A DNA stretch of 64,000 nucleotides from Cafeteria roenbergensis (Eukaryota > Sar > Bigyra > Bicosoecida > Cafeteriaceae), in contig VLTN01000025.1 in NCBI GenBank assembly GCA_008330645.1, positions 372,001-436,000 of the forward strand, written 5' to 3'. Below are positions 5,151 through 53,420 of this stretch, one piece after another. Numbering within the stretch: the stretch's first letter is position 1; the number at the start of each line of letters is the position of its first letter. The notes beneath the pieces are model-generated. The model ran no database searches, was not told the DNA's origin, and saw only the letters and a list, made by a program, of their open reading frames with translations. The translations under genes were made by a program, and so were the position numbers.

Positions 5151-8100
5151 CTTTGCGCTCGCGGTGCGCAAGCTCTCTGCCGGTGGCCTTCGCGCCGAGT
5201 ACTTTGACAACCAGTGGTTGCAGGGCAGCCCCGTGGTGACCCGCGTCGACCCCGCGATCGACTTCGACTGGGGGGAGGGCCTCGTGACGCCCTTCGCGCG
5301 CGACTACGTGTCCGCTCGCTGGACCGGCAAGGTGCGCGCCCCTGTGACGGAGCGCGTCACGTTCCACCTGTCCGCCGACGACGGGGCCCGCCTCTGGGTC
5401 GGCCACCAGCTCGTCATCGACTTCTTCGACGACGCGGCGCAGGGCGCCTCGCCCTCGTCCGCAACCGTGGACTTGGCCGCCGGCCGGCTGACCGACGTGG
5501 TGGTCGAGTGGCGTGACGCGTCCGGCGCCGCGGCCGCGAAGCTCGAGTGGAGCAGCGCGTCGATGGACCGGCAGGTCGTTCCGGCCGACGCGCTCTTCGC
5601 CGCCGACCACGTGGCAGGCAGCCCCTTCTCGGTGGCGGTGCGCCCCGGCGCGGCGGACTTCCCCTTCTCCAGCGCGTGGGGCCCCGGCCTCGGCCGCGGG
5701 GTTGTCGCGGGCGTGCTCACGTACGTCGATATCCAGGCGCGCGACGCCACCGGCAGCAACAAGACCGCGGGCGGAGACGACTTTTGCGTGTCCCTCGTTG
5801 GCCCGGCCGGGCAGTCCCTCTCGCCGCTGGTGGAGTACTTGGGCGGCGAGTCCGGCCGCTACCGCGCGTACTACACCGCCACCGTGGCCGGCGAGTACCA
5901 GGCGCGCGTGACCATCGGCGGGAGTGACGTTGGCTGCGGGGCCGCGGTGGCGTGCTCGCCCTTCCGCGTCCTCGTGTCGCACGGCAAGGCCTCTTACATC
6001 ACCAGCTCCGTGAGCGGCAGCGGCCTGTACGGCGGCACCGCGGGCGACGCCTCCGTGGTGACCATCACGGCCCGCGACCCGTACGGCAACGTTGTCACGC
6101 CCGGAGGCGACGCGGCCAGGTTCTCGATGGACGCCGTGCTCGTGACGCCGGCCTTCGTCGGCGCAGACGCCATCCCGGCAGGCACGGCGCTGGCCGCTGC
6201 CGAGGTGGGCGGGGCTGCGGCGGCCGGCAACGCCTCATCGCTGTCGTCCCTCGACGGCGACGTCACTCGCGTCCGCGGCGAGGTCCGCGACAACGGCGAC
6301 GGCACCTACACCGCGCGCTACACGCCCCTCGTGGCCGGCTCCTACATCGTCTCCGTTCGCATGTCGGGCGGCGCCGGCACCGCAGGTGCGGCTGCCTCCA
6401 GCCTCATCCTGCACGACGGCGCCCGCCGCTCCACGTCGGCAGTCGTCCGGCACACCGTGCTCAGCGGCGCCACGTCCACGGCTGTGGGTGCGGGCCTGGC
6501 CAACGCCACCACGCAGACGGAGGCCGGCTTCACCGTGCACGGCCGCGACGTGTGGGGCAACGTCCGCACCGGGGCCGAGCAGACTGCCCCTCGCGACGAC
6601 GGGCGCAGCGACGCCTTTGCCGTGACCCTCACTGGCCCGTCGGGACAGGTGCACCGCACGTCTAGCGCCGTTGTGGACGTGTCGCTGACCGCGGTTAACG
6701 GCACGTGGCGCCTGAACGTGACCCTTGCCGCCGCTCCCCAGCGCGCCTCCGGCGTCTTCGAGGGCCTTCCTTGCGGCGAGACTCGCTTCACCCCGGCCCT
6801 TCCCGCGGACGCCTCGCCCGAGGCCGTTGCGCTCGCGCTGGCTCGCACCGTGTATGACCCGTACCTGGCCGCCCGGCGCACCGGCGAGGCCACCGATGCC
6901 TCCTCCGCCGCCTCCGGCACGTCGCTCGAGGGCCTCGCGGCCCCGACGGCCTCTGTGGTGCGTGCGGAGCTCGTCTCGGCCGGCCTCGCGGGCGGCGCTT
7001 CCGGGCCCCGTGTCTACCGCCTGACCTTCCTCCACCCCGGCGTGCTGGCCCTCTGGAGGCCCGAGTCCGTCGTCAGCGTCGATGGCTCCGCGCTCGTGGG
7101 CGCCGGTGCCATGGCCACTGTGGCCCCCGCAGCTGCGGCGGGGCTCTATCCCGTGCGCTACACTGTCCACGAGGCCGGCTCCTGGTCTGTGGACGTCCGC
7201 TCCGCGACGCTCGACGGCGTGGCCGCGGGCCTTGACCTCTACGCCCCCGCAGGCGCCTCTGGCGCCGAGGACTTTGCCGCGGCCTTTGGCTCCGGCCCCG
7301 CCGTCCGCGGCTCCCCCTTCGCCCTCCACGTGGCCCGCGGCGCCCCCCACGCTGCCTCGTCCGAGGCTTCCGGCGAGGGCCTCTCGGGCGGCGTGGTGGG
7401 GCAGCGCCGCAGCGTGGCCGTGCTGGTTCGCGACCGGCGCTTGCCCGAGGTCCAGGCGGTGTCCACGCGGTCCTTGGTCGCGGGGTCCTCGGCCGACGAC
7501 GTCCAGGCCGTGCAGGAGCTCGTGTGCGACGCCACCGGCGGCAGCGTGGTCGTGTCGTTCCGGGCCGGGCTCACCTCCCCTGCGTCGGGCACGCGGACGG
7601 CGTCCCTGCCGGCGTCGAGCACCACCGCTCAGGTGGCGGCCGCCCTCCAGGCCATGGACACCATCGACGGCGTGGCCGTGAGCGCCTCCGGGCCGCAGAC
7701 CACGCTCTGCGCGGCTGGCGCAGCCGGCTCCTTCCTGGTCACCTTCACTGGCCCGGCCGTTTCCGGCGACGTCCCGCTCCTCGCTGTGGAGGACGCTTCG
7801 GGCCTCACCGGCGGCGCGGCGTCGTTTGCGGTGTCCTCTGCCCGCTCGGGCGCCAGCGCAGGCCGCTCCGAGACCCAGGTGCTCACCTGCACGCAGGCGC
7901 CGACTCCCACCGCCGGCTTTGACCTCACCGTGTCGGCCCCGTCTGTGATGGTTTCCGTGCCCGGCGCGGCCGCCGGCGCGCCTCTGTCGCAGCGCTTTGC
8001 GCCCCTGCTGGCGACTGTGCGCGTCCCCGCGGACGCCACCCTCGCGTCGCTCAAGGGCTTGCTCCAGGGCATCGAGGGAGGCGCTCTTGGGTCCCTGCGC

Positions 8101-11100
8101 GTTGAGCACGCCGCCAACACGGCCGCGGCCGGCGACGCGGTCTGCCACGCCCCCGCGAGCGCCGGGCAGGAGGAGCCCGTGCTGGTGACGTTCGAGTCGC
8201 TCAGTGGCGACGTCCCGACCATGGTCGCTGCGCCGGTCAACATGTCCGGCGCTGCAACGGCCTCTGCTGCCTCTGGCATCGAGGGCCGGGCCGCCGTCGG
8301 GGGCGCCTTCACCCTCTCGTTCCGCGGAGAGCGCACGGCGCCAATCCCGGCAGACGCAAGCGCCCAGTTCGTGGAGGCCGCTTTGGAGGACTTGGCGTCG
8401 GTCGATGACGTGGCCGTGTCCCGGACCCTGCTGGGCACGTCGTCGACCAGCGGTGGCGCCACGGGCGTGGCCACGTGGCTCGTCACCTTTGCCCCAGTGA
8501 GCGGCCCGTCGGCCGGCTACGTCCGCTCGCTTCGGACCACTGGCAACGTCCCGATGCTCGAGGCTGACTGGGCAGCGGGCACGGGCGGCTCGGCCGGCCT
8601 GGTCTCCTCTGCCGGAGTGGCGGCCGACGTTGCAGTGGAAGTCGCAGAGGTGCAGCGCGGCGAGGCCGGCAACGAGGCCGCTCCTTCCACCGCCACCACC
8701 GCCACGCTTCCTTCGGACGCCGTGCCCGAGGCCTTTGCCCTTGCAGGGACGCTTCGCGTCGACGGCGGCAGCCCGTCCTCTCTGGCCATGGCGTCGGTCT
8801 TTGAGCTTCGGTGCGTCGCCACCGCCGGCACCGTGCTGCTCGGCATGTCCAGCACCCCGGCCCTGCGCAGCAGCCCGGCCCTGGTGACCGTGGGAGCCAA
8901 CGCGTCGCTGGTGGAGCTGCAGCAGGCGGTCGCGTCCGCTTACGCAGCAGCAGGCCGCGCGGCGGGCTTTTCTGCCACGGCGGCAGCGTCGCTCAGCGCG
9001 TCAGTCACCAGCTCCGACCCGGTTTCGGGCGCGGCGCCGGCCTTCCCCGCCTCGACGGCGTGCTCCTCGTCGGCGTCCACCGGGCCCGTGTTTGTGACCC
9101 TCGGCGGCTGGCCGTCCACGGCCGCCCAGGCGCTGGCTCTGGCCGCGGCCAAGGACGCCGACGCCGCGGGCGCCGCCGAGCTGGGCGTGCCTCCCGCTCC
9201 TGCCACACTCGTGGTCGTGGACGACCGGGCCCTCCGCCACTCCGCAACGACCGACGCCGCGTCCCTGGTGTCCTTCGCTGAGGTCCGCGAGCGCGCCCGC
9301 TCCGGCGTCACGGTGGCCGCCGACGCGGCCGCCCCCGGCGCGCGGGACTCCCGGTTTGTCGTGTCCTTTGACGCTGCTCGGGCGGGCTCGTACGACCTCG
9401 TCGTGTCCCTCGCAGGCAGCCCCGTGAGCGGTGACTACGCTCCGGCAAGCGCCGGGGCCTCCTTCGCCGTCCAGGCCGCCGACGCCTCGGCTTCGTCGCA
9501 CCTGTCCGACGGCATGGCCGTGTCCGGCGTGCTCGAGTCCTTTGAGCTGCAGGCCACGGACGCCTTTGGCAACGACCTGGCCGGCGAGCTCGCCGACGCG
9601 GCCGTCGTGGTGCCCGGCGAGTCGGACGGCGGCGAGGCCGACGATGCGCGGTCCGGCGCAGTGATGGCGGCGCCCCCCGCCGGCTGGCCTCGGCGCGACT
9701 CCTTCTCTGTGGTGCTCGTGGGCTCTCCCGACGTGCGCGCAAAGCTCGCCGAGCACGGCGCCTCCGCCCCCGACTCGGTCGTCGTCCCTGCCACGGTGGT
9801 GCCTGCCGCGGCGCAGTCGACGCGCGGGCTCTACCGCGCAAGCTGGATGCCCAGGGTTGCCGGCAACTACTCGCTCGAGGCGCGCCTCATGCGCCCCGGC
9901 GGCCTGGTCGCCACGTACTGGACGGTGGACAGCTTCCAGGACCCGATGTCCGGCCTCTTCGGCTTTTGCCCCGTGCCCCTGGGCCGCTTCCCTGCCGAGT
10001 GCGAGGGCACCCGCGTGGAGTCTTCTCTCGCCCGGACCTGGGGCCCCGAGCCCCCGCTGCCCATCGCGCACGTGGACAAGTACGGCGCGCCGATGCCGTC
10101 GGAGTCCTGGTCCGTGTCCTGGGAGGGCGCCCTTGCCGCGCCGTCCGTGGAGGGCACGCTGCTCCTCGAGACCGCGACCACCGGCAGCGTGCGCGTGTGG
10201 CTGAACAACTCTCTGGTGATTGACGACTGGGAGCCGGTGCGCAACACCAAGCGTTCGGCCCCCGTCTTCCTGGGCGGCGAGGGCTCCCTGCCCCTCCTTC
10301 CGCTGCGCGTGGAGTTCCGCTACCCGTCCTACCAGGTGGACCTGGATTTCCGCTGGTCCTTCTCGCCTGCCCCCGGCTCCTCTGGCGCCATCGCAATGTC
10401 GTCCGTGCCGTCGTGGGCCCTGTACAGCGGCCGCCACGTCAGCGGCAGCCCCCGGCCCGTCACCGTGCTGCCCGGGGCGGCCGACCCGGCGTCGTCCGCT
10501 GTGCAGCAGGCCCCCGCCCGCGTGGAGGCGGGCTCCCAGGCGTGCTTCCGCGTTGCCATCGCCGACGAAGTCGGCAACCGCCGGTTCCAGTCCGGCGCCG
10601 ACTCCCTCACCGTGGCTGTCACGGGCTCGGACGGCTGGGCCGCTGCGGGCCGCATCGGGGACGTTTGGACTGGCGAGCCGCACAGGTTCGCCTCTCCCGG
10701 CGCGCTCTCCCCCGACCTGGACGCCAAGGCCGCTCCGGCCGAGGTGACGGCCCTCGACTTTGAAACTCTCTGCCCCGCGTGCGGCTCCATCGTCACCGGC
10801 AGCCGCGTGCTCCGAACCTCGCACGCCGTGGCCGCGTCGCTGATGGCCCCCGGCCGCGGCCGCGCCATCGTCGTCAACGGCGAGACCCTCCTCGTGGCCC
10901 CGGCAACGCAGCGAGACCTCGAGGCGGTGGCCTCTTCCGCCGCTGCCGCCGCGGACGACTCCGAGCAGGCGTACCTCGACCGGCTCTACCCGTCCCTGAC
11001 CAACGCCACGGTGCCTCTTGCGTACGCCTACAGCGGGCCCACCGTCACCGGAGCGGCTGTCATGTCTGCGGGAGCCTCGACCGGCGTGCACCGCGTTTGC

Positions 11101-14100
11101 TTCCTCCCGACGATCCGCGGCAAGTACTCGGTCGACGTCCGCTTCCCGCGCACCGCCGAGGTGCAGCGCGTCGTCCTGGCCGCCCAGTCGGCGCTCGGCG
11201 GCACGTTCCGCCTCGCGTACCGCGGCCTGGCCACGACCGCTCTGCCGTTCGACGCGACCCCAGCCACGGTGCAGGCGGCGCTCGTGGCCGCCGTCCCGCT
11301 GTTCGCGTCGGCCTCGGTGAACATCACGGTGGAGGCAGCCAACGCCTCCGCAGCCGACCTCGAGGGCGCTCAGGCGGGCGCGGACATTGAGGCGCTGGTC
11401 GCCGCCGGAGCGTCCCGCTCCCGCGCCTTTGACGTGTCCTTCCTCGCTGCCTCCGACGAGGAGGCCGCCGCCCTGGAGTCCCTCCTCGTCGACGTGTCCA
11501 GCCTCACCGGCGATGCCCCTGCCGCGTCCGTGCGCGTGCTCGCCAACGCCCGGCCCAGCCGCCCTGTCGGCGGCAGCCCCTTCGTGGTGGCCGTGGACCC
11601 GGCCGCGCCCGCCGCCGCAGTGTCCCGTGCCCGCGGCCAGGGCCTCGTCTCCGCGCTTTCTGGAGGGGGAGCCAACTTCACCATCGTGCCCAAGGACCGC
11701 TTCGGCAACGACCTGCGGTGCGCGTCCAGCGGCGCCGACGCGGCCTGGCCTCGCTACCGCGTGGCGCTCCGGCCCGCCTCGTTCGCCGCGCTCGAGGCCG
11801 CCAGCATGCTCCCGCTGCAGAACGGAACCCTTCGCCGCGCGTGCGTCCCGGCGGCGGCCCTCGCGGGCAGCGCGGCCTCTTCCGGCTCCGCGTCTGGCTC
11901 CGCCGAGGACGACAGCGTCGTCGTGTTCGTGGACTACAACGCAACGGTTGCCGGACCCTCGACCCTGGTCGTGACCCAGGCCATCGCGGACGAGACGCAG
12001 AACATCACCATCCGCAACGCTGCTGGCGGCTCCTTCCGCCTCAGCCTCGGCCGCGCCTCCACCGGGCCGCTCGCCTTCGACGCATCTGCCGCGGACGTGG
12101 CGGCAGCCCTGTCCGCGCTTCCGCTCGCTGCCGGTGGCGGCCGCGGCGCCGTGGGGCTTGCGGGGGCAACGCTGCCCGCATCGGACGTCGTTGTGACGCG
12201 CGCCGGCTCCTTCGGCCAGGGCGACTCGGCGGTGACCTACACCGCTCGCTTTGCCGTGGCCGTGGGCGCGCTGCCCACGCTGGTGATCGACACCGACCGG
12301 CTCTCCGGTGGCGCCTCGGCGGCCACCGGCGCCGTCGTGCGCGTGACTGCAGGTGCCGAGGAGCACATCGGAACGGCCCTCCGCCCCCTGGTGGCCGAGC
12401 AGCAGCTCGTCTCCGTGCGCTTCGCCGGTGCCGCCAACCGGACCGGCTCCTTCCGCCTCTCCCTCTTCGGCGAGGAGTCGGCCGCGCTGCAGTGGAACGC
12501 CTCCGCTGCCCAGGTGCAGGCGGCCCTGTCTGCCCTGCGCGGCGCCGGCCGCGTTGCCGTCGCTTCGTCCTCCAACGCCTACTTCGGCACCGACTTCGCC
12601 GTGACCTTTGAGCCGCAGGCCGCTGGCGCAAACGCGTCGGTGGCAGCACTCGAGGCAACGCTTCGTGCCGGTGCTCCCCCCGCGCACGACGCCCTCGTCC
12701 GCGCGCGCGCCGAGGGCTCCGCGCTCACAGTGGATGCCGGCGCCGCTCTCCTGGCTGCCGGTGCGCCCGCTGCCCGTGCGCTGCAGTCTGTCGGCGCCGT
12801 CGGCGACATGCCGGCTCTGGCCGCGGCCGACAAGGCGAGCCTTGGGCCGGCGGGCGCCGACGTGGTGTTCTTCGACGACGGCGCGGCTTCCACCCGCCGC
12901 GGAGTCAGTCCTTACTCGCCCACCATCGTGGCCAGGGTGCCGCCAGCAATGTGCACGGCCTCGGACGACATCGATGGCGGCCTCACTTCGGGCGTCTTCC
13001 GCCGCGAGGCCTCCTTCTCCATGGCCTGCCGCGACGCCTTTGGAAACGCGCACCTGCTCGGCCCCCGCAAGGAGGTGCAGGTCATCAGCGTGGTCGACGA
13101 GGCCCCCGTCGGAGCGGGAGCCGACGCCTGGTTCCGCCTCGCCTTCCGCGGCGCCGCCACCCCGCGCCTCGCGCTCGGCGAGCTGTCCGCCGCTGCCGTG
13201 GAGGACGCCCTCGAGGCTCTCCCAACGGTGGGCGCCGTGACCGTCGCCGAGACCAACGTGTCCGCCATCCCCGACGCGGGCGCTGGCGGCGCCTTCGTGC
13301 GCCAGTTCGAGGTGACGTTTGACAGCGACTCGGGAGACGTGTCCGCCATCGAGGTGCAGGAAACCAGCGACGGCCTGCTGGGCCTCGCCGCTGCCTCCGC
13401 CGCCGGGGCGGCCAACGCCTCGGCGTTCTCCGACCGCGTGGTCGTGGCCGCCTGCGACGGCCAGCACGTGCAGGTGGTGCGCACCAGCGCTGCTGGCGCC
13501 GTGTCCGGCTACTTCTCGCTGTCCTTCGGCGGCGCCTCCACGCGCCTTCTTGCCTCCGACGTCGCGGCCGACTCCGAGGGCCCCGGCGGCCTTGGCTCCA
13601 TCGGGCCTGCTGGGCCTGCCGACTCGACCGCCTTTGAGCGCCCTGGCGTGGGCATGCGGCAAGCGCTGGAGGCCCTTCCGGGCGTCAACGGCGTGCTCGT
13701 GTCCCGCGCGGCCGCGCCGGGCGCGGGCGAAAACGCCTTCGAGTGGCACGTCACGTTCCTCTCGTGGGAGGGCATGCACGACGACGAGGTCATGGCTGGG
13801 CCGGGCCTGGCGACCCCGCCCAACCCGTCCTCTGCGAACAGGCCCGGTGGCCCGGACCTCGTCTTCGCCGAGGGCGCCTTGCTCAACGGCACGTCGGCCG
13901 CCGTCACCGTGGAGGCCTCTTGCGCCGCGGCCCCGCGCACCGGCACCCGTGCCGTCCCGGGCCGCCTCGGCGACACCTTCCTCGTCCAGGTCCTCGGCGG
14001 CGACGCCGCGGCCACTGGCCAGGGCGCCGACGGCGTGCAGGCGCTTGCTGCCAGCGCGACCGTTTCCTACAGCGGCCAGGCGGGCCGGTACGTCGCGACC

Positions 14101-17100
14101 TACACGGCTCCTGCCGAGGGCGCGTACGAGGTTCACGCCTCCCTGGCGCGCGTGGGCGGGCTCGCTGCCCGCTACTTTGCCAACCAGTACCACTTCGGGA
14201 AGCCCGGCATCGAGCGCGTGGACCCGGCTGTCGACTTCGCGTGGACCGGCCCCGTCGTTGGCGGCCTTGCCGACCGCATCTCGGCCGCCTGGTCCGGCTG
14301 GGTGCTGCCGCCCTTCTCGGAGCGCCTCACATTCACGGTTGTGCTGCCGTCTGACGACAGCGCCGAGCTTGTGTTCAACGGCTCCTCGCTTGCCCTCTCG
14401 GAAGCCGCGGACGCGGCTGTGCCCGCTGGCCGCAAGGCCCTCCGCGCCACCAGCGACGTGCCGGTGGTCGCTGGCCAGCTCCACGCCATCGCCCTCAGCC
14501 TCCAGCACGGCGTGGGCAACGCGGCCGTGCAGCTGCTGTGGTCGTCGGCCTCGCAGCCCTCGCAAGTGGTGCCGGCCTACCGCCTGGCCCACTCGCTTGT
14601 GCCCGTGGTCTCCTCGCCGTTCAAGGCGGCGTACGAGGGCATCGAGCCGGCCGCCCCCGCCGCCCTCTCGCTTGCCATCGCAGGCGACACGTCGCTCCAT
14701 GCCACGTGGGTGCCGCCCGCCGACGACGGTGGCGACCCGGTGACCGCCTACAAGGTCGAGTGGTGGCGCGGGTGGACTGCCGCGGACGACGCCGAAATCC
14801 AGACGGTCCGCCTGTCTGCCGGCGTGTCTGGCGGCACCTTCTCGCTCGCCGCCGCCGGCGAAAGCACCACGCAGCTGCGCTGGGACGCGCACGCCTCCGA
14901 AGTGGAGGCCGCGTTCGAGCAGCTCGCCGCCGTCGGCGACGTGACGGTGGCCGGCGCGTCCCCTTCGTGGACCGTCACGTTCTCCTCCGACCCCGGAGAC
15001 CAGCCCGCGCTCTCCGCAAACGGGGCTTCGCTCACGGGCGCGTCTGGCGTGGCCGTGGGCGTGTGCGCAGGAAACGCTACCGGCGCTGTGGCCGGCACGG
15101 GCGGCGCCGTGGTGTGCACCTCGGCAGACTCTCGGGACGGCAAGGCCGCCGTGGGCCTGTGCGAGACTTCGCTGGCCTCTGCTGCCGCCGCTGGCTGCGA
15201 CACCGAGGGCCCGGCGTCGTCGTGCCACGGGGCGTGCCCTGTCGTCGACGGCGCGGAGTCTGTGCGCGTGGCCGCGTCGCTCGCCCGCCGCCTGGTGGCG
15301 TCAGGAGAGGCCGTGGCGCCTTCCGGCGCGGTGGCAGAGCCCCTGGCCATCACCCTCCGGGGGCTGACCCAGGGTGCGAGCTACACCGTGCGCGTCAGCG
15401 CCCGCAACGGACAGGGCTACGGCGTGCCGTCGGTGCTTGCCAGCGAGACGCCCCGCGCTGTCCCGTCGGCCCCTGTCGCCCCCGTCACGGAGCTTGTTGC
15501 GGGCAGCGGGTCCTCCCTGCGCGCGTACTGGAGCCTTCCGGTGGACGACAACGGCGCGGAGCTCAGCCATTTCCACGTGCAGTGGCGCCGCGTCGGCGAC
15601 GCGGAGCCGCTCGACCCGGAGGCGTCGCTCGACACCGCCGGGCGTGACGCTCTGTGGGCCGCCGCTCTTGCCGAGGCCGCCAGCGCGTCGTCGTCGTCGT
15701 CCGCGACTGCGCCGGCGGCTCCGGGAGGCGCCGTCCGCCTCGCGCTCTCGGCAGTGACCAGCCCGCGCCAGGCTGTCGACGACCAGCTTCGCCAGCACGT
15801 GCTCTCCGGCCTGACCGAGGGCGCGCGCTACGCGGTGCGCGTCGCCGCAGAGAACGAGCGCGGGGTCGGCGCGTGGGCCACCGCCCTCCCGTCGACCCTG
15901 GTCCCGCGCCAGGCGCCGGCTGCGCCCGCGGCCCAGGAGGTCCTGCTCGAGGCGCTTGTGGCGGGAGAGGAGGTGTCCGTCGGCGACTCCGCCACCACGC
16001 TCAAGCTCTCGTGGGCCGCGCCCGCCGGCCACGACGCCGCCGCTGCTGTGATGCGGCGCCTTGCCGTGGCCACCGGCGCCGCCAACGCAACGTCCTTCGC
16101 CGCGCCCTTCCCGGTGTACACGGTCGAGTTCGCCCGCTCTGACTTCCGCGACGCCCGCGCTGCCACGCGCGTGGTGCGCATCGACGCTGCGTCCGGGCTC
16201 GCGCTCCGCGGCACGTTCACGCTCGCCGTGGGCTCTCATCGCACCGAGGCCATCCCAGTCGACGCTTCGGCGCAGGCCGTTCGCACCGCAGTCGAGGCGC
16301 TTGCCTCGGTCCGCGCGCCGGTGCTGGTGACCAAGAACGTCTCGTCCGGCGCCCTGGACCAGGCGGCCGCCTACTCGGCGGCGTGGACCCTCGAGTTCCG
16401 CGGCGACGCCGGCTCCGGCGACCCCGAGGCCCTCACCGCCAACGTGTCCGGGGTGGCGGCTGCCGCTTCGGCAGTCGCCTCTGTCGAGTCGGAGCTGACC
16501 ACCAACCTCTGCTCGGCAGCAGGCGCCGCAGCGGCCGGGTGCGTGGACGTGTCCCAGTTCTCGAACATGGCCGTGCTCTCTGGCGGCGACGCCACGTCAG
16601 TGCTTGCGGAAGGAAGCTGGCTTGCGCTCGGCGCGGGCTCCGCCGTCGAGCACTTCAAGGTGGTCACCGTTCGCCTTGCTGGCGCCGACACCGTCATCAC
16701 GCTCTCTTCTGCGCTGCAGGGCACCACGCTCGTGTCCGCGCCGGCGTTCACCGGCGCTGCGGTGCCGGGCGGTGTTGCTCTCGGCTACGCCGCGGAGGAG
16801 CTGACGGAGGAAGCGCTGGAGCTCGCCTCGACGCCCGACGCCCCCACGCGCTGGGTGCACCGCCTCACCGGCCTCTCCACCGGAGTTTCCTACTTTGCTC
16901 GCGTGTCCGCCACCTTCAACGACCTCGGCTCCGGCGCTGCCTCGGCGTCCACCCCGGCGAGCGTGGCGCCGCCTCGCCAGCGTCCCGACGCTCCGGCTCT
17001 GGCCCGCGTCACCCCCAACTCCGCCTCCAGCCTCCGCGTGCTGTTCCGCGCCCCGCACTCTGACGGCGGCGCAGACGTCACGGCGTTCCGCGTGGAGTGG

Positions 17101-35100: not shown

Positions 35101-38100
35101 GCCAGCCAGGCCGCGCAGGGCGCCGGCAACCTGCCGATGCTCGAGGCCTTCAACACCACCGGCGTCTTCTCGCCGGAGACCCCCGGAGCTGCGGTGCTCG
35201 TGAGCGAGATGGTGCGCGGCACCGACGCCCTCCGCGTGACTCTGAGCGACCTGGAGGCTGGCGTCCCCGTGTTCTTCCGCGTGGCCGCGTACAACAGCCG
35301 CGGGCACTCCCTCTTCGGCCCCGTTGCCGTCGCCACGCCTCGCGGCCACCCCGGCGCCCCGACCGACGTCTCCGTTGCCGTGGCCGGCGAGGCCGCCATC
35401 ACCGTGGACTGGACTGCGTCGGACCCGCGCGGAGCCGCGGTGGACGAGTACGTGGTGGAGCGCTGGACGGGCGGCGCCGCTGCGGCCCGCCACGAGATCC
35501 AGGCGGTCACCACCAGCGCCGGCGACGGCGTGCCCGAGATCCAGGCCATCCGCACGGAGGCAGCCACGCTCTCGCTGTCCGGCGTGTTCCGCGTGGAGGC
35601 CCCTTCCACGGGCGAGCGCACGCCGCCCCTCGCCTTCGACGCCTCGGCTGCGGACGTCAAGGCCGCGATGGAGAGCCTGTCGGCCTTCAACTCCGTCAGC
35701 GTGTCGCGGGCCCGGTCCTGGCGCGCGATGCGCGGCCACGTCCGCGTGGCAGCGGGCGCCTCCGTCGTGCAGTGCGACCCGGCGTCGCCCTGCGGCCTTT
35801 CCTCGCTGTCTCCCGGCGACATCTTCATGGTGGCGGGCGTGGAGCTCAACGCCTCCGCCCCCGGCACCGCGTCCTCCGTCGCCATCACCTCCCCCTGGCC
35901 GATGGACTCGGTGAGCGCCGCCCCTGCCTTCTCGTGGGCGTTCGGCTACGAGTGGCGCGTGACCTTCACCGGCCACGTCGGCGACGTCCTCCCGGTCCGC
36001 CCGGTCGCAGACCTGCACTTCTCGGGAGACGACGCGCACGTGCTCGCCACGACGGTCAGGCAGGGCGCTGGGCCGCTCGGCGGCACCTTCGCGGTCGGCT
36101 TCGGCGCCTTCACGACGCCGCAGCTGCCGCACGACGCGTCCGCCCAGGACATGGAGACTGCCATCGAGGCGCTGCCCAGCGCCGGCGACGTCACCGTCAC
36201 GCGCTCCAGGGTGGCCAACGGGCTTCGCTGGCGCGTCACCTTCGAGACCCTGCTGGGCGACCTGCCGGCCATGACTGTCGACGGCGCCGCCCTCACCGGC
36301 CCGTCCGCCACCGTGGGCGTGGGCGAGGCGGTGCGCGGCGTGCTGCCGCCCGGCTACGTTGCCGAGACGGTGTCCGCCTCCACTGCCGCCGCGGCTGCGG
36401 CAGGCGTCGGCGCGCCGCCGTCCTCTCTCGTGGGAGCCGTGCGGTCCTCGGACCCGCGCGCCGCCCTCCGGCACACGCTCGGCGGCCTCACCCGCGGCGT
36501 GGCCTACACCATCCGCGTGATCGGCCGCTCCGCCGAGGGCCTCGGCGCCTCGTCCGCGGCGCTGGTCGAGTCCGCCCGCGGCGTGCCGGGCGCCCCCGAC
36601 TCCCCGACCCTCATCTCGCTGTCTGCCTCCACTGTGAAGCTTGCGTGGAACGGGCCGAGCGACACTGGCGGTGCCCCCGTGACGCAGTACCGCGTCGAGT
36701 GGGACCGGACCAGCGCGTTCGCGGACGCCGCCACCGCTGGCTACCACGCCACCCTCAACGTGGCTGACCTGGTCGCCGCGGCCACTGCCCCCGGCAGCCC
36801 CCAGCGCCGCGCGAACATCACCGTCACGCCCGAGGCCGGGCCCTTCTTCTTCAACATCGTGCTGCCGGGCTCCTCGGCCGGCGTGCCCTGGTTCGCGCGC
36901 GTGAGCGCCGTCAACGACCAGGGCGCCGGGCCCTTCGCCGCCTCCGCCCCGCCCAGCATCGTGCCGTCGACGTCTCGCCCCGGCGCTCCTCTGGGCGTCA
37001 TCGCCTCGTCCGTGTCCGGCTCGCAGCTGGTCGCCGAGTGGGACGCGCCCTCGGCGGCGCTGCCCGTCTTCGGCGGCGACGGCGGCCTGCCGGTGACTTC
37101 CTACCTCGTGGAGTGGCAGTCCCCCTCGCTGGACCCCAACCCGAACGTCGTGGCCGCCGGCAGGGCCGTGGTGCTCCCGGCCGCGGCTGCAGCCTCGGCT
37201 GCCGCTGCGGGCGTGACCGCGAGCCGCGCCTTCCGCTTCGTCATCGGGCGCCGCGACGTCGTCACCGGCATCGTGAACTCGTCCGTCGTCCTCGGGAACG
37301 GCTACCAGGTCCGCGTCACGGCGTACAACGCCAACGGCTACGGCCCCGGCGGCTACGCCCAGCCGGAGAGCGTCAAGGCCGCGGACCGCGTGCCTTCCGT
37401 GCCCCGCAACCTGACCCTGAAGCGCCAGCTCGGCAGCGCCACCGCCCTCGCGGCCTCGTGGGGCCTGCCTGAGTTCGACGGCGGCAGCACCATCGAGCGA
37501 TTCCGCGTCGAGGTGGACACCGACCCGTCCATGTCCTCGCCGGCCCTGAGCGTGCGCGAGGCGTGGGCCCTGCCCGAGACGCAGATCGTCGCGGTCGACT
37601 CCGGCGTGCGCCAGGAGGTGCAGGCCGTGCGCGCCACGGTGGCTGTGGTGAACGAGCGCCAGCGCATCACCTCGACGCTCTCCGGCGGCCGCGACGAGGT
37701 CCAGACCCTGACCACGTCGGCGGACGCCGCGGCGCCGGAGGTGCAGACCGTGACCACGTGGACGCAGGACATCGACGAGGTCCAGACCCTCACCACCTCG
37801 GGCACAGACCGCAAGGAGATCCAGAGCGTGCGCCTCACCACGCCCGTGGTGAACGAGATCCAGACCGTGCGCCTGTACCACCCGAGCCCGGTCGCCGCCG
37901 TGCAGCGCGTCATCGTGAGCGACGTGGCCCGCACGCAGGTGGTGAGCACCTCCGTGACCGGCGGCACCCTGGACGGGGGCTTCTTCCGCCTCTCGTGGGC
38001 CGACAACGGCGTCTCGGTGTGCGTGCCGTTCAACGCCGACGCGGCGACCATGCGCGGCCTCACAGACAACTTCGTCGGCGCCGGCCTCACCAGCGTCACG

Positions 38101-41100
38101 GCCGGAGCCGCGGCGGCGGACGGCTCCCGGTCCTGGACCGTCACGTTCGCCGCATCCGTGGCCGCGTCCCAGGTGCAGCCCATCATCGTGAACACCACCG
38201 ACTGCGACGGCTCCGGCTGCCCTGCCTGCGGCGGCGGCGCCGGGCCGTTCCTCGAATGCTCCGGCTCGCCCGGCTGCGTGGGGAGCGTGGACGTGGACGC
38301 GGTGAGCCTCGGCGGCACCTTCACGCTGTCGCTCGACGTGAGCGCCCACCCCATGGTCACTGGCACGCCCGGCGTCTACACCACGGCGCCCATCTCCTTT
38401 GCCAGCAGCGGCGACTTCACGACGGACCTGGCCGCCAAGGTGGCTGCCTTTGACCCGGCCTGCTCGGCGCCTCCCTGCGCGTCCGTGACGCCCGTGTGGA
38501 TGCCCGGAGACGGCACCAACAGCGGCACGGACTTCGAGAGCTGGGCTTGGGACGTGAGCTTCCCCGGCCTGTACGGCGACGTGCCCCTCATGGCCAAGGC
38601 TGGCACCACGTTCACCGGCTCCGACGGCGCAGAGACCGACGTCGTCGTCTCCACGACTGTGGCGGGCACCCAGGCTGCGAGCACCTTCCTCCTGTCCGTG
38701 AACGGCACGGCCAGCACGCCCGTTGCGGCGTCCGGCTACGAGACGACTCCCGCCATCGCCTGGAACGCCCCGGCCGGCACCGGCATCTCCTCTCTGCACG
38801 CCCGGCTGGTGCAGCTCGTGGGCGTGGACAACGCCCTCGTTGTGACCCGCGGCGCCCCCGAGCGCGAGGGCGGCTTCACCTGGACCGTGACCTTTGACAG
38901 CTCCAAGTCTGCCAACCAGGGCAACCTGGCGGCCATGCTCTGCGACGCCTCGTCCGTCGCCCTCTCGTCCAACGCCTCCGACCACAGCTTCTTGTGCGAC
39001 GTGGCCACTGTGCAGGACGGCGTGTACATCGACGGCACCTTCAGCCTAACTGTGGCCAGCCCCGAAATCGGCTCCTCCGCCAGCTGGACCACGGGCGCGC
39101 TTCCCGCCAGGGCCACTGCCGCAGAGGTTCGCGCGGCGATCGAGGGCCTCGACGCCTCCATCGGCACCGTTGCGGTGACCGTGGCCGGCGGCCCGACAGT
39201 GACTGGCGGCATGACGTGGCAGATCAGCTTCGTGACGCTTGTGGGCGACGTGCCGGCCATCACCGTGGCAGGCGCGCCGGCCATGGCCCCCGTGGGCGAC
39301 GTCATCGCCGAAGTGGGCGAGGACGTGGACGAGACGCAGGTGGTCACCATCGTGGGGTACACGTCTGGGACCTTCACGCTCAACCTCGACGCCAGCGGCG
39401 GCAGCTGCGAGCTCTGCACCGACACCACGAGCAGGACGACCGGCGCCATCAACCCCAGCGCCCCCGTTGCGGACGCGTCGTCCATCGAGTCGCGCCTCGC
39501 TGCGATCCTTGGTGCTGGCCAGGTGACCGTTACGCGCAACGTGACGGCGGCCGCGACGCCGGAGACCATCTTCACCGTGGTCTTCTCCGGCGCCGCCGTG
39601 CGTGGCAACGTGCCGCAGATGACCGTGGCGACCGACTCGGTCGTCACCAGCTCGGGCACGCCCGTGGCCGTGACCACCCAGCAGGACGGCAAGCACCGCA
39701 CCGGCGCTGAGGTGCACGGCAACGTGGTCGGGGGCACCTTCCGCGTCTCCTGGTGCGCCAGGGACGGCGCGTCGTGCGCGACCTCGGCCAACATCAGCGC
39801 GCAGGCCTCCGCCGAGGACGTGCGCGCGGCCCTCAACGCCACCGTCAGCTCGGCCCTGGCCACTGCCGGAATCGTGCCCGCCACGTCGGCGTCGCCCTTG
39901 ACCGTGACGCGGTCCTCGCCGCGCGCTGCCGCCTACACTTGGGCGTGGTCCGTGACCTTCTCGGGCGACGCCGTCGGCGGCAACCAGAACCCGTTCGTCG
40001 TGGCCGACGTCTCCCAGCTGACCGGCGACGCCGCTGCGGTGGCTGTCACCGAGACCAGCCGCGGCAACGAGCTGCAGGGAACCTTCCGCCTGCGCCTGTC
40101 CTCGGGCGTGTCGACGCAGATCGCCTTTGACGCCTCCGCCGACGAGGTGCGCACGGCTCTCCAGTCCATCACCACGGTGGTGGACGGCCGCGCGGGGTAC
40201 GTGAACGTGAGCAGGACGGTGCTCCCCTCCGTGATCGGCGTCGACCAGAAGCAGGTCATGGGCTACCAGTGGGCTGTGACGTTCCTGTCCAACCAGCACG
40301 ACGGCACCGACAACTACGCCGAGTGGGGCAACGGCATCTCGCAGTCGTGGGGCCGCAACATCGGCGACGTCCCGATGATGGCGTGCGACCCGGCCCTCCC
40401 GGCCACGTTCGGCACGACCAACGCCGCAGGCACCGTGCAGTGCTCCGTCTGCCAGGCCGGCACCAACGCGACCAACGGCGGCACCGACTGCGCGGACGGC
40501 ACGCCCCCGCTCGGAGGCACCTTCACCATCACCGTGGACACGACCGACTGCGTGGGCTGCCACGTCCGCGGCTCCCACACCACCTCCTTCATCGACCACA
40601 ACGCCAAGCCCGACGCCGCCTCGGCTGCCGCCGCTGGCCAGGCAGGCCTCAGCGTCGAGGAGCGCCTCGAGGCCCTGCCCAACGTGGGCAACGTGACTGT
40701 GACCCGCTCCGGCCCCACGCTGGCCGACGGCGGCTACACTTGGAACGTCACCTTCAACCGCGACGTGCGCTCGGGCAACCCCGACTGCGTCGACGTGGCC
40801 TCCCACCCCGGCGTGGGCGGGGACGGCTGCCCCAGCCCTGGCGACGTGGCCCTCGTGGTCGTGACCGGCCCCGGCGGCGCAGGCCTTCTGGGCGCGGGCG
40901 CCAACGTAAGCGTGGCCGAGGTGGTTCGCGGCAACATCCTGCGCGGCTCGTTCCGCGTCGGTGTCGCCGACTCCCACGCCGCCACCTTCGCCGCTGCCCC
41001 GGAGGACGAGGCCCAGACCCCGTCCGTCTTCACCGAGGCGCTGCCGTGGAGCGCCTCCGCCGCCGACGTCGTCTCGGCCCTCGAGGCCAGCGCGGTGGTC

Positions 41101-44100
41101 AGCGGCTCCGGCCTGGTCCAGGACGTGGAGGCCTCCAAGCAGGTCACCGACAAGTGGGGCTCGACCGTGTGGGACGTGCGCTTCACCCGCAACCAGCGGC
41201 ACGTGCCGCCCGGCGCCGGAGACGTGCCCATGCTCCGCGTGGACCGCTCCGCGCTGTACGAGACGGGCGCAGGCGCGCCCTGCTCCGCGGCCGGCGGCGA
41301 CCCCTTCTCCGTGTGCCTCCCGGCCAACACGAGCGCCCTCTTTGTGAACGAGACGACCAAGGGAAGCGCCGGCCTGTCCGGCGAGTTCCGTCTCGACTTT
41401 GGCTCGGACGGCGTGGCCGTGCCCTTCAACGCCACGGACGTGGCCCTCAAGGGCCTGCTCGAGGGCCTGACCACGGTGGAGGAGCTGCACGTGACGCGGT
41501 CCTCGTACGGCGCCGGGTGGGACGCACAGGCCGTGCTTGTGGACGGCTCCGTCGGCGGCCTGGAGTGGCAGGTGACCTTCACCTCGCTGCAGGGCGCCAC
41601 CGACGGCAAGACCTTCCCGCCGGGCTCCGGCGACGCGGCCCCGCTGGTGCCGAGCGCCAACACGCTGGCCGGCGCTTCGGCGCTCGCCTCAGTCGTGGAG
41701 GTCGTCAAGGGCTCCGAGGAGCTGACCGGCTTCTTCGCCCTGGAGCACACGCAGTCGGTGGACCCCGCCCTCGGCATGGGCACCTCCATCACCCGCCGCA
41801 CCGCGCCCATCTCCCGCGACGCCACGGCAATCGCGGTGGCCACGGCGCTCGAGGACATCGACACCGTGCAGAACGTGACCGTGCGCCGCACCACGCGCCT
41901 CGCAGCGCAGCTCCCCAACGTCGCTGCGTCGGCGCAGCGCGGCGCGGGCGCCCTGGCGGTCTCCGGCGACCTCCGCGGCCTCCTCGCGCGTGGCGACCTG
42001 ATCCGCGTGGGCGGCCGTGCCGACGCCCTCGGGGCGGCCGCCGGCACCGGGGCGGTGGCCCTCAGCGGCGGCGACGTGCTGCTCCCGGCGACGGCCGTCG
42101 CGCTGGTGCCCGGCTCCTCCTCCGTGGCCCTTTCCGCCCCCGTGCGGCACCTCGTCGCCGCCGGGCAGCGCGTGCGCATGCGGGAGACCGAGTTCGTCGT
42201 GGCCTCGACGGGCGAGGGCGTGCAGCGCGTGGTGGTGGACGCCTCCGCGGCGGCGGCCGCCTCCGAAATCTCTGCCAACCACACGCTGCGCCTTAGCTAC
42301 GACAGCGTGTCGACTGTGTGCATCGGCGTCGCGTCCACCGGCGCCCAGGTCGCCGCGGCCCTCAACGCGCTGCCAGAGGTGGCTGCGCGCGGAGGCGTGG
42401 CCGTCACCGTCTTCCACGGAGGCGCCACCGGCCCCGCCGCGCCCGCCGCCGGCTCTGCCGAAGCCGCCGCTCTGGGCGCGGCCACCGCCGCCGCGTCTGC
42501 CGGCGGCGTCAGCGTCTGGTCCGTCTTCTTCGTGGGTGCCGGCTTCGACGCCTCCACCGGCGTGGCCGCGGACTTTGCCCCGCTCGCCTTCGTCGGCGTG
42601 GGCTCGCAGGCCGCCTGCACGGACCCCTCTCCCATGACGGGCCCCGCCGAGCTTGCCGTGGTGGTGACCCCCACCGTCGTGACGCCGGCCGCCTCGGCGC
42701 TGGTCCTCAACCTGACCGCGCCGTACGCCGGTCGCCCCGCCTCGGCGGTGCCGATGTGGCGCGTCCCCAGCGTGTTCCGCGTGTCGACCGACGCCGCGAG
42801 GGTCTTCTCCGCCACCAGCGTGCCTCTTGGGACGGTGGCGGACGCCAGCGTGGCCGCGGCCCTCCTCGGCAACGACGCCTCGTCGCCGGCGTCCCCGTCC
42901 GTGGCGGCCTCTGCTGCCTCCGCGGCGGTGGCCAGCGCGTCCCTCTTCCGCGTGTCCGGCCTCGCCTGGTGGGTCACGTTCGAGAGCGTCCTCGGCAACG
43001 CGGGCGGCCTCGTCCCGGTTCGCAACGCCTCGGCGCCCAACGCCTTCGGGCTCGTTGGCGAGAACGCGACGCTCGTCACGACCGACGACGCCGTTGCCGC
43101 CGCCCTGCCGGCGCAGAACTTCGTGCTGGACGGCCTGGTGACCGGCGTGCCCTACTTCGCGCGCGTGTCCGCCGCGAACGCCATCGGCTACGGCCCGGCC
43201 ACCGACCCCCCCGTGACCGAGCGCCCCGCCTCCTCGCCGCCGGCCCCCCGGGCGCTCGCCGCCTCGCCCGCGCTGCACATCAACGAGGTCCAGCGCGTGA
43301 CCACGGCCGCGACGCACGTCAACGAGGTGCAGACCATCGCCACGGCCGCCACGCCCGACCCCGAGGAGCAGGCCGTCGCCATCACGGCGGCGGACGGCGC
43401 CTCCGTCAGCGGCAACTTCTCCCTGTCCCTGGGCGGCGTGAGCACGCTCGACCAGGTGCAGACCATCGTGGTGAGCGCGTCCGCGGGCCCCATCGCCTCC
43501 GGCTCGTACATCCTGTCCTTCGCCACCAACGAAACGGCATGCGTGCCCTGGGACGCCTCCGCCGACGACATGCGCGCTGCCCTCGAGGCTCTGCCCGCCG
43601 TGGCTAGCGCCGTGGTCGCGCGCGACGGCGACGGCTCCACCGCCGGCAGCGCAGGCGGCCTCGCTCCCTTCGGCTTCAAGTACACCGTAGTCGTGACCGC
43701 CTCGTCGCCGGCCGTCGCGGCCGCCCACCCGCTCATCGTCGCGGCCGACGCCCCGCCCTCGGGCCTCACCGCCACGTGCGGCGGCGCCTGGACCGGCGGC
43801 AGCGGCCACAGCGTCGCCGTGACCGAGTCCCTTGCTGCGGGCTCGACCCTGTCCGTTGGCGCCTCCGAGGCCGAGGTGGAGGCGCTCCTTGCGGCCCTGC
43901 CCACCTTTGGCGCGGTCGGCGCCTCCGGCCTCTCCGGTGCCGTCGCGCTGGCTCTCAAGCCGCTCGGCCCCGCCGGCGAGCCCGCCACCCTCGGCCTCGC
44001 GCCGCTTGTGACGCGCTCCGAAGCCGACGCGCAGGGCGGCTACCGCTACAGCATCGTGCTCCGCGGCCTCGCGGGCGACGCCACCGGCCCTGGAGTCATC

Positions 44101-49894: not shown

Positions 49895-52800
49895 ATGGCG
49901 GATCGCGTAAGCAGCGGCGCGCGCCCGCGGGCCGTCTTGGGGGGAGCGCTGGGGGCGCGCGAGCGGCGTCAGCCGCGCCCGAGCCTGCGCTGGGCGCAGT
50001 CCGGCCGGACGGGAACACCGCCGCCAGCGCGTGCGTCTGTGCAATCCGCGACCGCCCGGCCAGCCCGTTCCCGGCCCGCTCTCCGTGCCTGCAGGAGGAC
50101 GAGATTTCGGCGCAGCTGCCCGGGGCCTGGACGGCCGTGTGGGACGACAACGAGAGGGTGAGCGCGCGTGTGACCCACTTGGCTCTCCCATCGCGAACGG
50201 GTTGGCACGCGAGCCTGCGGGTCTCGCCCCAGTCTGGGCCGCGAGCGCTTCCCCGGTGGCCTGCCTGGCCCCTCCGTGCCCGCGGCGGGGGCAAGCCCTC
50301 TTCGCCCCGCCGCCTGCTACTGCGACGCGCGCGCCTCGATCGCACGAGGATCGCGAGCAGCACCAAGTTGCCCGATGCTGCTCGTGCGCGCTTGCGCCTC
50401 AGCTGGCCCGCGAGCCACGCATCCCCCCAGTGAGCCGCCCCTGGAACACGCGCTCGCAGGACTACTACTTTTGGAACACGGAGACGGACGATGGTGGGTC
50501 ACGCTCCGGAGTTGTCGGCGTGGCTGCCTTGCGGAGCAGACAAACCCGCGCGGCTGCCTTGCGTCCGCAGGCTAATCTGCCTTGCCCGACGCGCCTCTCC
50601 CCCCCCCTGCTGCCGCTTGCGCGCTGCCACCCGACCGCGTGCCGCAGTGACCTGGGACGACCCGCGCAAGCCGAAGCGCGAGCCCACCGTCGCCCTTCCC
50701 AAGGGCTGGGAGGAGGTTGTGGACGACAAGACTGGAGGTGAGCAGTTGATGCCCGCTTCGCCATCACGCTGGCGGAGGCGGGGGGACGCTCTCGTCCCCT
50801 CCCACGCGCGCGCGCTGTCCCTATTGCTCTCGCTTTGGCGCCCCGCCTTCCCCCTGCTTGCCACTCGGGTTCGGCGGCTGCGAGCCCGCGTCCTCGGCAC
50901 GCGCCGCACGGGCCTGCGGGTTTGCGGCGCCCCGCGGCCGAACGAAACCACTGCTCGAAGAGCAGCAGCAACGCCTCCTTCCAACCCCACCCGCCCCTTA
51001 GCTCGAGTGGCGTGCTTCCCTGCGACTCCGCAGACATCTTCTACTGGCACCCCGAATCGGACACGACCCAGTGGGAGGTCCCAACCGAGGCCGACACGCC
51101 GGTCAAGCATGCGAGCAAGGCTGCCCCAGCTGGCGGCGCCAGCAAGAAGAAGCGTGGCGTCATCATGGCCGAGTCGTACGACGTCGCCGAGGCTGGCTGG
51201 AAGCCGCCCGTGTTCAAGAAGGCCGTCGCCTCCGTGGCTACGATCAAGAAGGCCATCGCGGAGGCAGGCTTCATCTTCGCCGGGCTCGGCGCCACCGAAA
51301 TCGAGCAGGTCGTCAACGCGTTCAAGCCAACGCCCGTTGCCGCTGGCGAGGAGATCATCAAGCAGGGCGACAAGGGCGACGCCTTTTACATTGTCGAAAA
51401 GGGCGACTTTGACATTCTCGTCAACGGCACCAAGGTGGCAACGCGCGGAGCCGGCGACTACTTTGGCGAGCTCGCCCTCATGTACAACGCGCCTCGTGCA
51501 GCCTCGGTGGTGGCATCGGTCGCCTCCTCCGTCTTTGCCCTCGACCGTATGACCTTCCGTCACATGGTCGCCTCCAGCCGCGAGGACCAGCTGGCCGCCA
51601 TCCTCAAGGGCCTCCGCGAGGTGCCGCTGCTCGCCAAGCTCACCGACGAGCAGATCGACCGCGTCGCTGACGCCGTGCAGATCATCGACTTCAAGCCGCA
51701 CGACGTGATCATCCGCAAGGGCGAGGCCGGTGACAAGGCGTCCACCTTTTACATGGTCAAGAGCGGTGACGTCATCTGCACGGACATTGGCTCCGGTGAC
51801 AAGAAGCTCGACGACGTCAAGCTTGGCGCCGGCGCCTACTTCGGCGAGCGCGCCCTGCTCAAGGACGAGCCGCGCGCTGCCAACGTGTCGGCCGTGACCA
51901 AGACCGTGTGCATGACCCTCAACCGCCGCGCCTTCAACAACCTCCTCGGCCCCCTCCAGGAGGTGCTGGACAACAACCTCAACCTGCGCGTCCTCTCCTC
52001 CATCCCCATGTTCGGCCGCCTCTCCCACAAGGAGAAGGACGCCGTCGTGTCCTCCTTCCGCGCCGTGCGCCTCGCCGCTGGCAAGGCCGTCGCTGCCAAG
52101 GGCGCCCCCCTCAGCGGCTTCTTCGTCGTCAAGAGCGGCTCCGTCCGCGTCGCGTCGAGCGGCGCCAGCATCGAGACGATCTCGCCGGGCGGCTACTTCG
52201 GCAAGGACGCGCTCCGCACCTCCACCGCGTCTCCCTACGACTACACTGCCGCCGAGGATGGCACGGAGCTCTTCACCATCGACAAGCCCACATTTGAGAA
52301 GGTGGTCGGCGCCACCATGGTCACCGTGGAGGCGCGCACTGCCGCCGAGGTGGAGGCCGCCAACGCCGCCGACTCGGGGCCAAGCGGCGCCGAAGCGGCT
52401 GCCGCGTCCGGCGCCGGCGGCTCCAGTGCCTCTGGCGTCCCCGTCCCGGCCTTCCAGAGCTCCCTGGCCCTCCGCGACCTCGAGATCATCCGCACCCTTG
52501 GCGCCGGCACCTTTGGCCGCGTCAAGCTCGTGCGCCACCGCCCCACCAACGCCGCGTACGCCCTCAAGGTGTTGCAAAAGGCCCAGATCGTCGCCTACGG
52601 GCAGCAGAAGAACGTGATGAACGAGCGCAACGTCATGTGCATGGTCAACCACCCCTTCGTGCTCAAGCTCTGCGCCACCTACAAGGACCGCAACTGCCTC
52701 TTCATGCTCCTCGAGCTCGTGCAGGGCGGCGAGCTCTTCTCCCTGCTCGCCAACCAGGAGACCGGCTACCTCCCGGCCGACGAGGCGCGCTTCTACGCCG

Positions 52801-53420
52801 CGTGCGTCGTCTCCGGCCTCGAGGCCCTCCACAGCAAGAGCATCCTCTACCGCGACCTCAAGCCCGAGAACATGCTCATTGACGCGCAGGGCTACATCAA
52901 GATCGTCGACATGGGCTTCGCCAAGGTGGTGGCCGACCGCACCTACACCCTCTGCGGCACCCCGGAGTACCTCGCTCCTGAGCTGGTGTACGGCAAGGGC
53001 CACAACAAGGGCGTCGACTACTGGGCCGTCGGTGTCCTCATCTACGAAATGCTCTGCGGCTCCTCCCCCTTCGCCGACGAGTCCAACGACCAGATGAAGA
53101 TCTGCAAGAAGATTGTCAAGGGCCGCTACACCTACCCCGGCTGGATGCGCGACCGCGACGCAAAGGACGTCGTAAACAAGCTCCTCACCCAGAAGGTCAC
53201 GTCCCGCCTTGGGTGCAAGCGCGGCGGCGTCGCCGACGTCAAGGGCCACCGCTGGTTCCGCGGCGTCGACTGGGACGCCCTCGAGGCCAAGCGCATCGCC
53301 GCTCCCTGGGTGCCCCCCCTCAAGGACCCCTTTGACGCCTCTCACTTTGACCCGTACGATGAGGACGACGAGGTGGAGCCGTACGTCGACGACGGCTCCG
53401 CGTGGGAGGCGGACTTCTGA
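49895..53420 (+). CDS. Cyclic-nucleotide-dependent protein kinase (PKG-like) with two N-terminal WW domains
   Basis: Proposed exons are 49895-49906, 50095-50157, 50460-50493, 50648-50737 and 51034-53420, giving 861 residues. WW1 is residues 12-43 (LPGAW, DYYFWN, VTWDDP); WW2 is 53-83 (LPKGW, DIFYWH, TTQWEVP). Three cyclic-nucleotide-binding (CNB) domains follow, with phosphate-binding cassettes at F210 (FGELALMYNAPRAA), F336 (FGERALLKDEPRAA) and F455 (FGKDALRTSTASPY, degenerate). The AGC kinase domain starts near D548: GAGTFGRV, K578, RDLKPEN with D674, DMG (instead of DFG) with D692, T705 in TLCGTPEY. In the first two cassettes Ala occupies the place where PKG usually has Thr or Ser, suggesting cAMP or another ligand rather than cGMP. 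The last four exons are phase-consistent. The first (M-A-D-R) is my choice; starts at 49777 (unspliced into exon 2) or 49736 (spliced at 49829) are alternatives. Confidence 0.9.

Follow-up and report, generated by a model that had tools for sequence, protein, structure and literature searches.

The window analysed here (the whole stretch of 64,000 nucleotides from contig VLTN01000025.1, with a G+C content of 73.6%) contains a giant open frame, apparently of a single-celled marine flagellate, that runs without interruption and encodes 16,420 amino acids inside the window and 17,788 over the whole contig. Contig C2 carries another giant frame, of 16,246 amino acids, which encodes a diverged paralog; residue numbers are given with A25 for the giant protein of the window and with B2 for the paralog. 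The locus studied within the first frame very probably encodes an A1-B1-C-B2-A2 architecture, where a small barrel (C) is inserted in the hairpin of an EVQ domain (B), which is itself inserted in a fibronectin type III domain (FN3, PF00041; A). This is indicated by both domain splits, by the nest of the paralog, by the predicted folds and by the matches to solved structures. A sequence-only reading of this DNA had proposed the same three levels, a small module in an EVQ in an FN3, and it was borne out by held-out profiles, by the paralog, where this nest is also present, and by a pair of structure predictions (models 1 and 2). The features are as follows:

1 to 49263, plus strand: giant open frame holding the nest; the frame starts 4,104 bases upstream of the window
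35344 to 35484, plus strand: FN3, first half; last residues DEYVVERWTGG
35530 to 35730, plus strand: EVQ 1, first half; opening strand, hairpin, helix and strand SVSVSR
35731 to 35943, plus strand: inner module, predicted small beta-barrel with the L-x-x-GD-like motif LSSLSPGD (long-insert alignment, MAFFT alignments, predicted fold)
35944 to 36066, plus strand: EVQ 1, second half (YEWRVTFTGHVGD...) (profiles, joined score, long-insert alignment)
36067 to 36351, plus strand: EVQ 2, uninterrupted sibling in the same FN3 (profile match to model positions 9-98, A25 13388-13475; predicted local distance difference test, pLDDT, of ~90)
36352 to 36447, plus strand: linker, partly of low confidence (pLDDT <50 at model residues 356-368)
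36448 to 36591, plus strand: FN3, second half, containing GLTRGVAYTIRVIGRSAEG (half profile, joined score, structure model)

In the usual FN3 naming, the first half of the FN3 corresponds to strands A-B-C and the second half to strands E-F-G. The EVQ and FN3-half profiles were held out, with the nest and the paralogous stretch masked in training. The FN3 half profiles match 35350-35460 and 36472-36573, which is where the FN3 had been read to open and to close. Joined for scoring only, the two halves reach 31.4 bits, while separately they give 21.6 and 20.0 bits, and this joined value was reached by none of 500 shuffles of either half. The two halves together form a beta-sandwich in the AlphaFold model, and the split FN3 superposes on solved structures. 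Half-pairs were counted wherever a second half came after a first one, whether or not EVQ lay between them, and unpaired halves were excluded. The two giant proteins contain 63 such pairs, 27 without an EVQ match between the halves (gap of 21-95 residues) and 36, the nest under study among them, that enclose at least one (gap of 148-1866 residues). It is common for an FN3 of the two giant proteins to be filled with EVQ.

The final EVQ profile has 100 positions and, at a threshold of E 0.01 per search, gave 156 matches in the two giant proteins, partial ones counted. For EVQ 1, the held-out profile matches the first half at A25 13214-13279 (model 1-67) and the second half at A25 13348-13371 (model 63-86), the latter reaching just 8.0 bits when taken alone. 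The joined halves score 68.1 bits, covering model positions 1-86 of 100, and the unjoined stretch scores 45.1 bits. The joined value is close to the median of 69.6 bits obtained for 61 uninterrupted EVQ copies. When the second half was shuffled 500 times, no shuffle reached that value, the best giving 57.9 bits. Scoring with joined flanks, the check that had been proposed from the sequence, is thus favourable for the EVQ and more weakly so for the FN3.

An alignment to the EVQ profile that permits one long insert (long-insert alignment) gains 27.7 bits, with the insert of ~71 residues placed after model position 64, at A25 13279-13349 (window 35731-35943). The sequence-only reading had set the interruption at 35730-35925, which is correct within a few residues. 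The long-insert score is 56.5; with everything after the first EVQ half shuffled, none of 60 trials reaches it (best 40.2), and for three uninterrupted EVQ copies used as controls the long-insert option lowers the score. The same hairpin loop has a median of 9.5 residues in the 114 helix/strand pairs, out of 136, that were measurable, the pairing being rough and some long values false. The split EVQ of the AlphaFold model superposes on solved structures and has the fold of the domains of gp23 of mycobacteriophage Bxb1. EVQ 1 is both guest, of the FN3, and host, of the barrel. At the start of the nested EVQ, window 35491-35550, there are two successive EVQ strands (HEIQAV and PEIQAI), and the paralog is alike.

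When relatives of the module are included in the alignment (model 2), the insert is predicted as a confident small beta-barrel, which matches the 'insertion domain' of the phage LKA1 tailspike gp49; the matched residues 65-140 correspond to window 35716-35943. In this model, the strands of the EVQ hairpin extend into the barrel, where they become its first and last strands. The MAFFT alignments line the insert up with modules that occupy this hairpin in other places, with LSSLSPGD falling on stretches like LTTLLSVGD. All 11 uninterrupted EVQ copies are gapped at the position of the insert (alignment A4), which argues against it being ordinary EVQ loop sequence, and a fold of its own is predicted, though only with relatives in the alignment. 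A hand-aligned core profile gives the insert 6.9 bits, a score matched by 1 of 2000 shuffles (1722 gave any match).

The alternative that the insert is not protein but an in-frame intron left unspliced is extremely improbable. There are six GT-AG pairs with a length of 3n that enclose the insert, for which chance could suffice, and introns are present in the presumed source genome according to the excerpt of PMC6972860. Nonetheless, the G+C content of the insert by codon position is 0.62/0.66/0.95, and its third-position value resembles that of the rest of the frame (mean of 0.91), unlike the region past the stop codon, which is flat at 0.72-0.74 and is taken as non-coding, indicating that the insert is coding. 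Furthermore, the similarity to the paralog extends into the insert (SWRA/SWRR stretch), and the insert has a predicted fold.

Several observations weigh against a nest of three levels. At the outer level, the joined FN3 score is barely above the best shuffle (30.2 bits) and lies far under the 60.5-117.6 bits of 26 uninterrupted copies, these copies being the training set. Such a weak joined score would fit an arrangement where the FN3 halves and the EVQ simply follow one another as fragments in a linear array, with no FN3 closed over the insert, which is considered very unlikely. At the middle level, model 2 is weak over residues 151-187, where EVQ 1 ends, with block means of 45-67; past residue 150 the second half has low confidence in this model and higher confidence in model 1. 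At the inner level, the insert has pLDDT <50 in model 1, for which two alignment rows cover it, and the confident barrel of model 2 hinges on rows that were picked as relatives of the module. With the first module profile, 109 of 1000 shuffles score as high as the insert. With the core profile, its 6.9 bits are reached by 88 of the 1891 random windows that were scored, a set that contains true copies, and by 9 of 854 after leaving out 15 known-copy stretches. The insert of the paralog attains only 2.6 bits, with 51 of 2000 shuffles and 73 of 854 windows as high, and the module profile A8 gave no significant match among PDB sequences; its best E was 0.07, and most of the matches were PDZ proteins.

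From sequence, the assignment of the insert to the L-x-x-GD modules, made by the sequence-only reading, is moderate at best. The low pLDDT of model 1 and the weak module score are also what would be seen if the insert were an enlarged, partly disordered loop of the EVQ hairpin with no independent domain, leaving only two levels of nesting. This is unlikely, and a barrel nested in the EVQ hairpin is preferred.

The nest is found again in the paralog, with a long-insert gain of 16.2 bits for 93 residues after model position 57. Given that it is common to both proteins, it is most simply explained as predating the split of the two giant genes. According to the long-insert alignment (for which the shuffle test covered the nest under study only), the better supported nests are the one under study, that of the paralog, B2 14745 and A25 15270. 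All four lie within an FN3 half-pair, and the remaining candidate EVQ hosts show lesser gains or a loss. The nest at A25 15270 is also in the window:

41716 to 43086, plus strand: second nest (profiles, long-insert alignment)

Two L-x-x-GD modules, together with another EVQ first half, break its EVQ after the V-x-V strand; this EVQ closes with GLAWWVTF and is enclosed by a split FN3 (A25 13833 to 15770). Both of these modules belonged to the training set of the core module profile.

This FN3 half-pair, at window ~37393-43206 (A25 13833-15770), has 1,866 residues and 13 EVQ matches between its halves, and a B2 half-pair encloses 1,821 residues and 10 EVQ matches. At window 37570-37965 (A25 13892-14023) there are seven matches to the EVQ opening strand (E-V-Q-x-V and like), 13-14 residues apart and with no intervening domain; runs of three or four begin at A25 65, B2 777, B2 12210 and B2 14055. 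Such runs may be orphan strands or the starts of nested domains.

Nested insertion as such is already known, as are solved relatives of the EVQ fold and the barrel as an insertion fold. The excerpt of an ECOD survey (PMC13114784) describes A1-B1-C-B2-A2 nesting of up to six levels, and the nested insertions of cyanobacterial RNA polymerase and ndhH that it reports follow the same principle with other folds and in intracellular proteins. Bxb1 gp23, of the tail-tip cage (PDB 9d93), has an EVQ-type fold and an apparent three-deep nesting at the same hairpin, as judged from profile matches in which its EVQ second halves reach only 7.4 and 7.7 bits. It differs in being a virion protein of 685 amino acids, where no FN3 host and no barrel were found. 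The insertion domains of LKA1 gp49 and P22 have other hosts, a beta-helix (LKA1) and a capsid protein (P22), and show no significant sequence match to the module. Domains of the EVQ and barrel kinds are known from the tails and tailspikes of phages.

The order of the EVQ half-domains in phage Marcell gp25 (L017 1011-3068), as in Bxb1 gp23, is first, first, first, second, second, an apparent triple nesting in a tail protein of a mycobacteriophage. Weak EVQ profile matches were also obtained for OCM proteins, which we take to be mastigoneme proteins of Ochromonas. These are OCM5 and OCM6 (PDB 9ufe), of 368 and 723 residues, with E values of 0.0035 and 0.098.

The initial description of the architecture as rare and not described was too strong, given the published nesting to six levels, the recurrence found here and the nesting suggested for phage EVQ. 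Among the literature matches listed (titles and abstract openings), and as far as the searches show, what is new is the FN3 > EVQ > barrel combination with its recurrence, and the relation of modules in a giant protist protein to those of phages.

With regard to how such a protein may be built, EVQ 1 and its intact sibling EVQ 2 very probably sit in the middle of the FN3, after its third strand, and the barrel is grafted on the EVQ hairpin through a two-stranded stalk, as the hairpin strands run on into the end strands of the barrel in the model. The giant protein, which has PA14 and filamin-type domains elsewhere, would be extracellular, with the FN3 units as its spine; Pfam identifies FN3, PA14 and filamin domains in its window part. 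Side branches would arise where EVQ domains stick out from FN3 loops, and barrels in turn from the hairpins of EVQ. They may serve as binding surfaces for glycans or prey, or may pack laterally in the manner of a cell coat or a flagellar hair. This role is a guess and is put forward tentatively. Surface Ig-like domains in the capsid and tail tube of mycobacteriophage Douge bind mycobacterial glycans, according to the excerpt of PMC13033339, and are not equated with EVQ here. The PA14 and filamin-type repeats lie in window 1-12000, in the same frame as the nest.

A broader proposal, possible but rather doubtful, is that the EVQ hairpin is a recursive insertion socket, used in phage virion proteins and in giant protist surface proteins, and that a eukaryote acquired phage-type tail modules together with their nesting habit and expanded them to the 156 EVQ matches. 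If so, the hairpin would take barrels, other EVQ domains or both, with the EVQ itself placed in FN3 loops. Because the domains match those of phage tails and tailspikes, it becomes testable where the module set originated and why the hairpin tolerates insertion.

The locus provides a concrete case of recurring domain-in-domain-in-domain insertion in one giant protein pair, where several hosts and guests can be compared. Linear domain annotation copes poorly with such proteins, given that Pfam names neither the EVQ nor the barrel and that its fn3 profile fits half at a time in the giant protein. Indeed, no Pfam family above the cut-off was found for the EVQ or the inner module in scans of the window frame and of seven module stretches. 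On a 567-amino-acid stretch, Pfam fn3 gives 5.9e-16, the best stretch being the next FN3.

Outside the giant frame, a neighbouring frame at window 50835-53417 combines a protein kinase domain with cyclic-nucleotide-binding domains, resembling a cyclic-nucleotide-dependent kinase.
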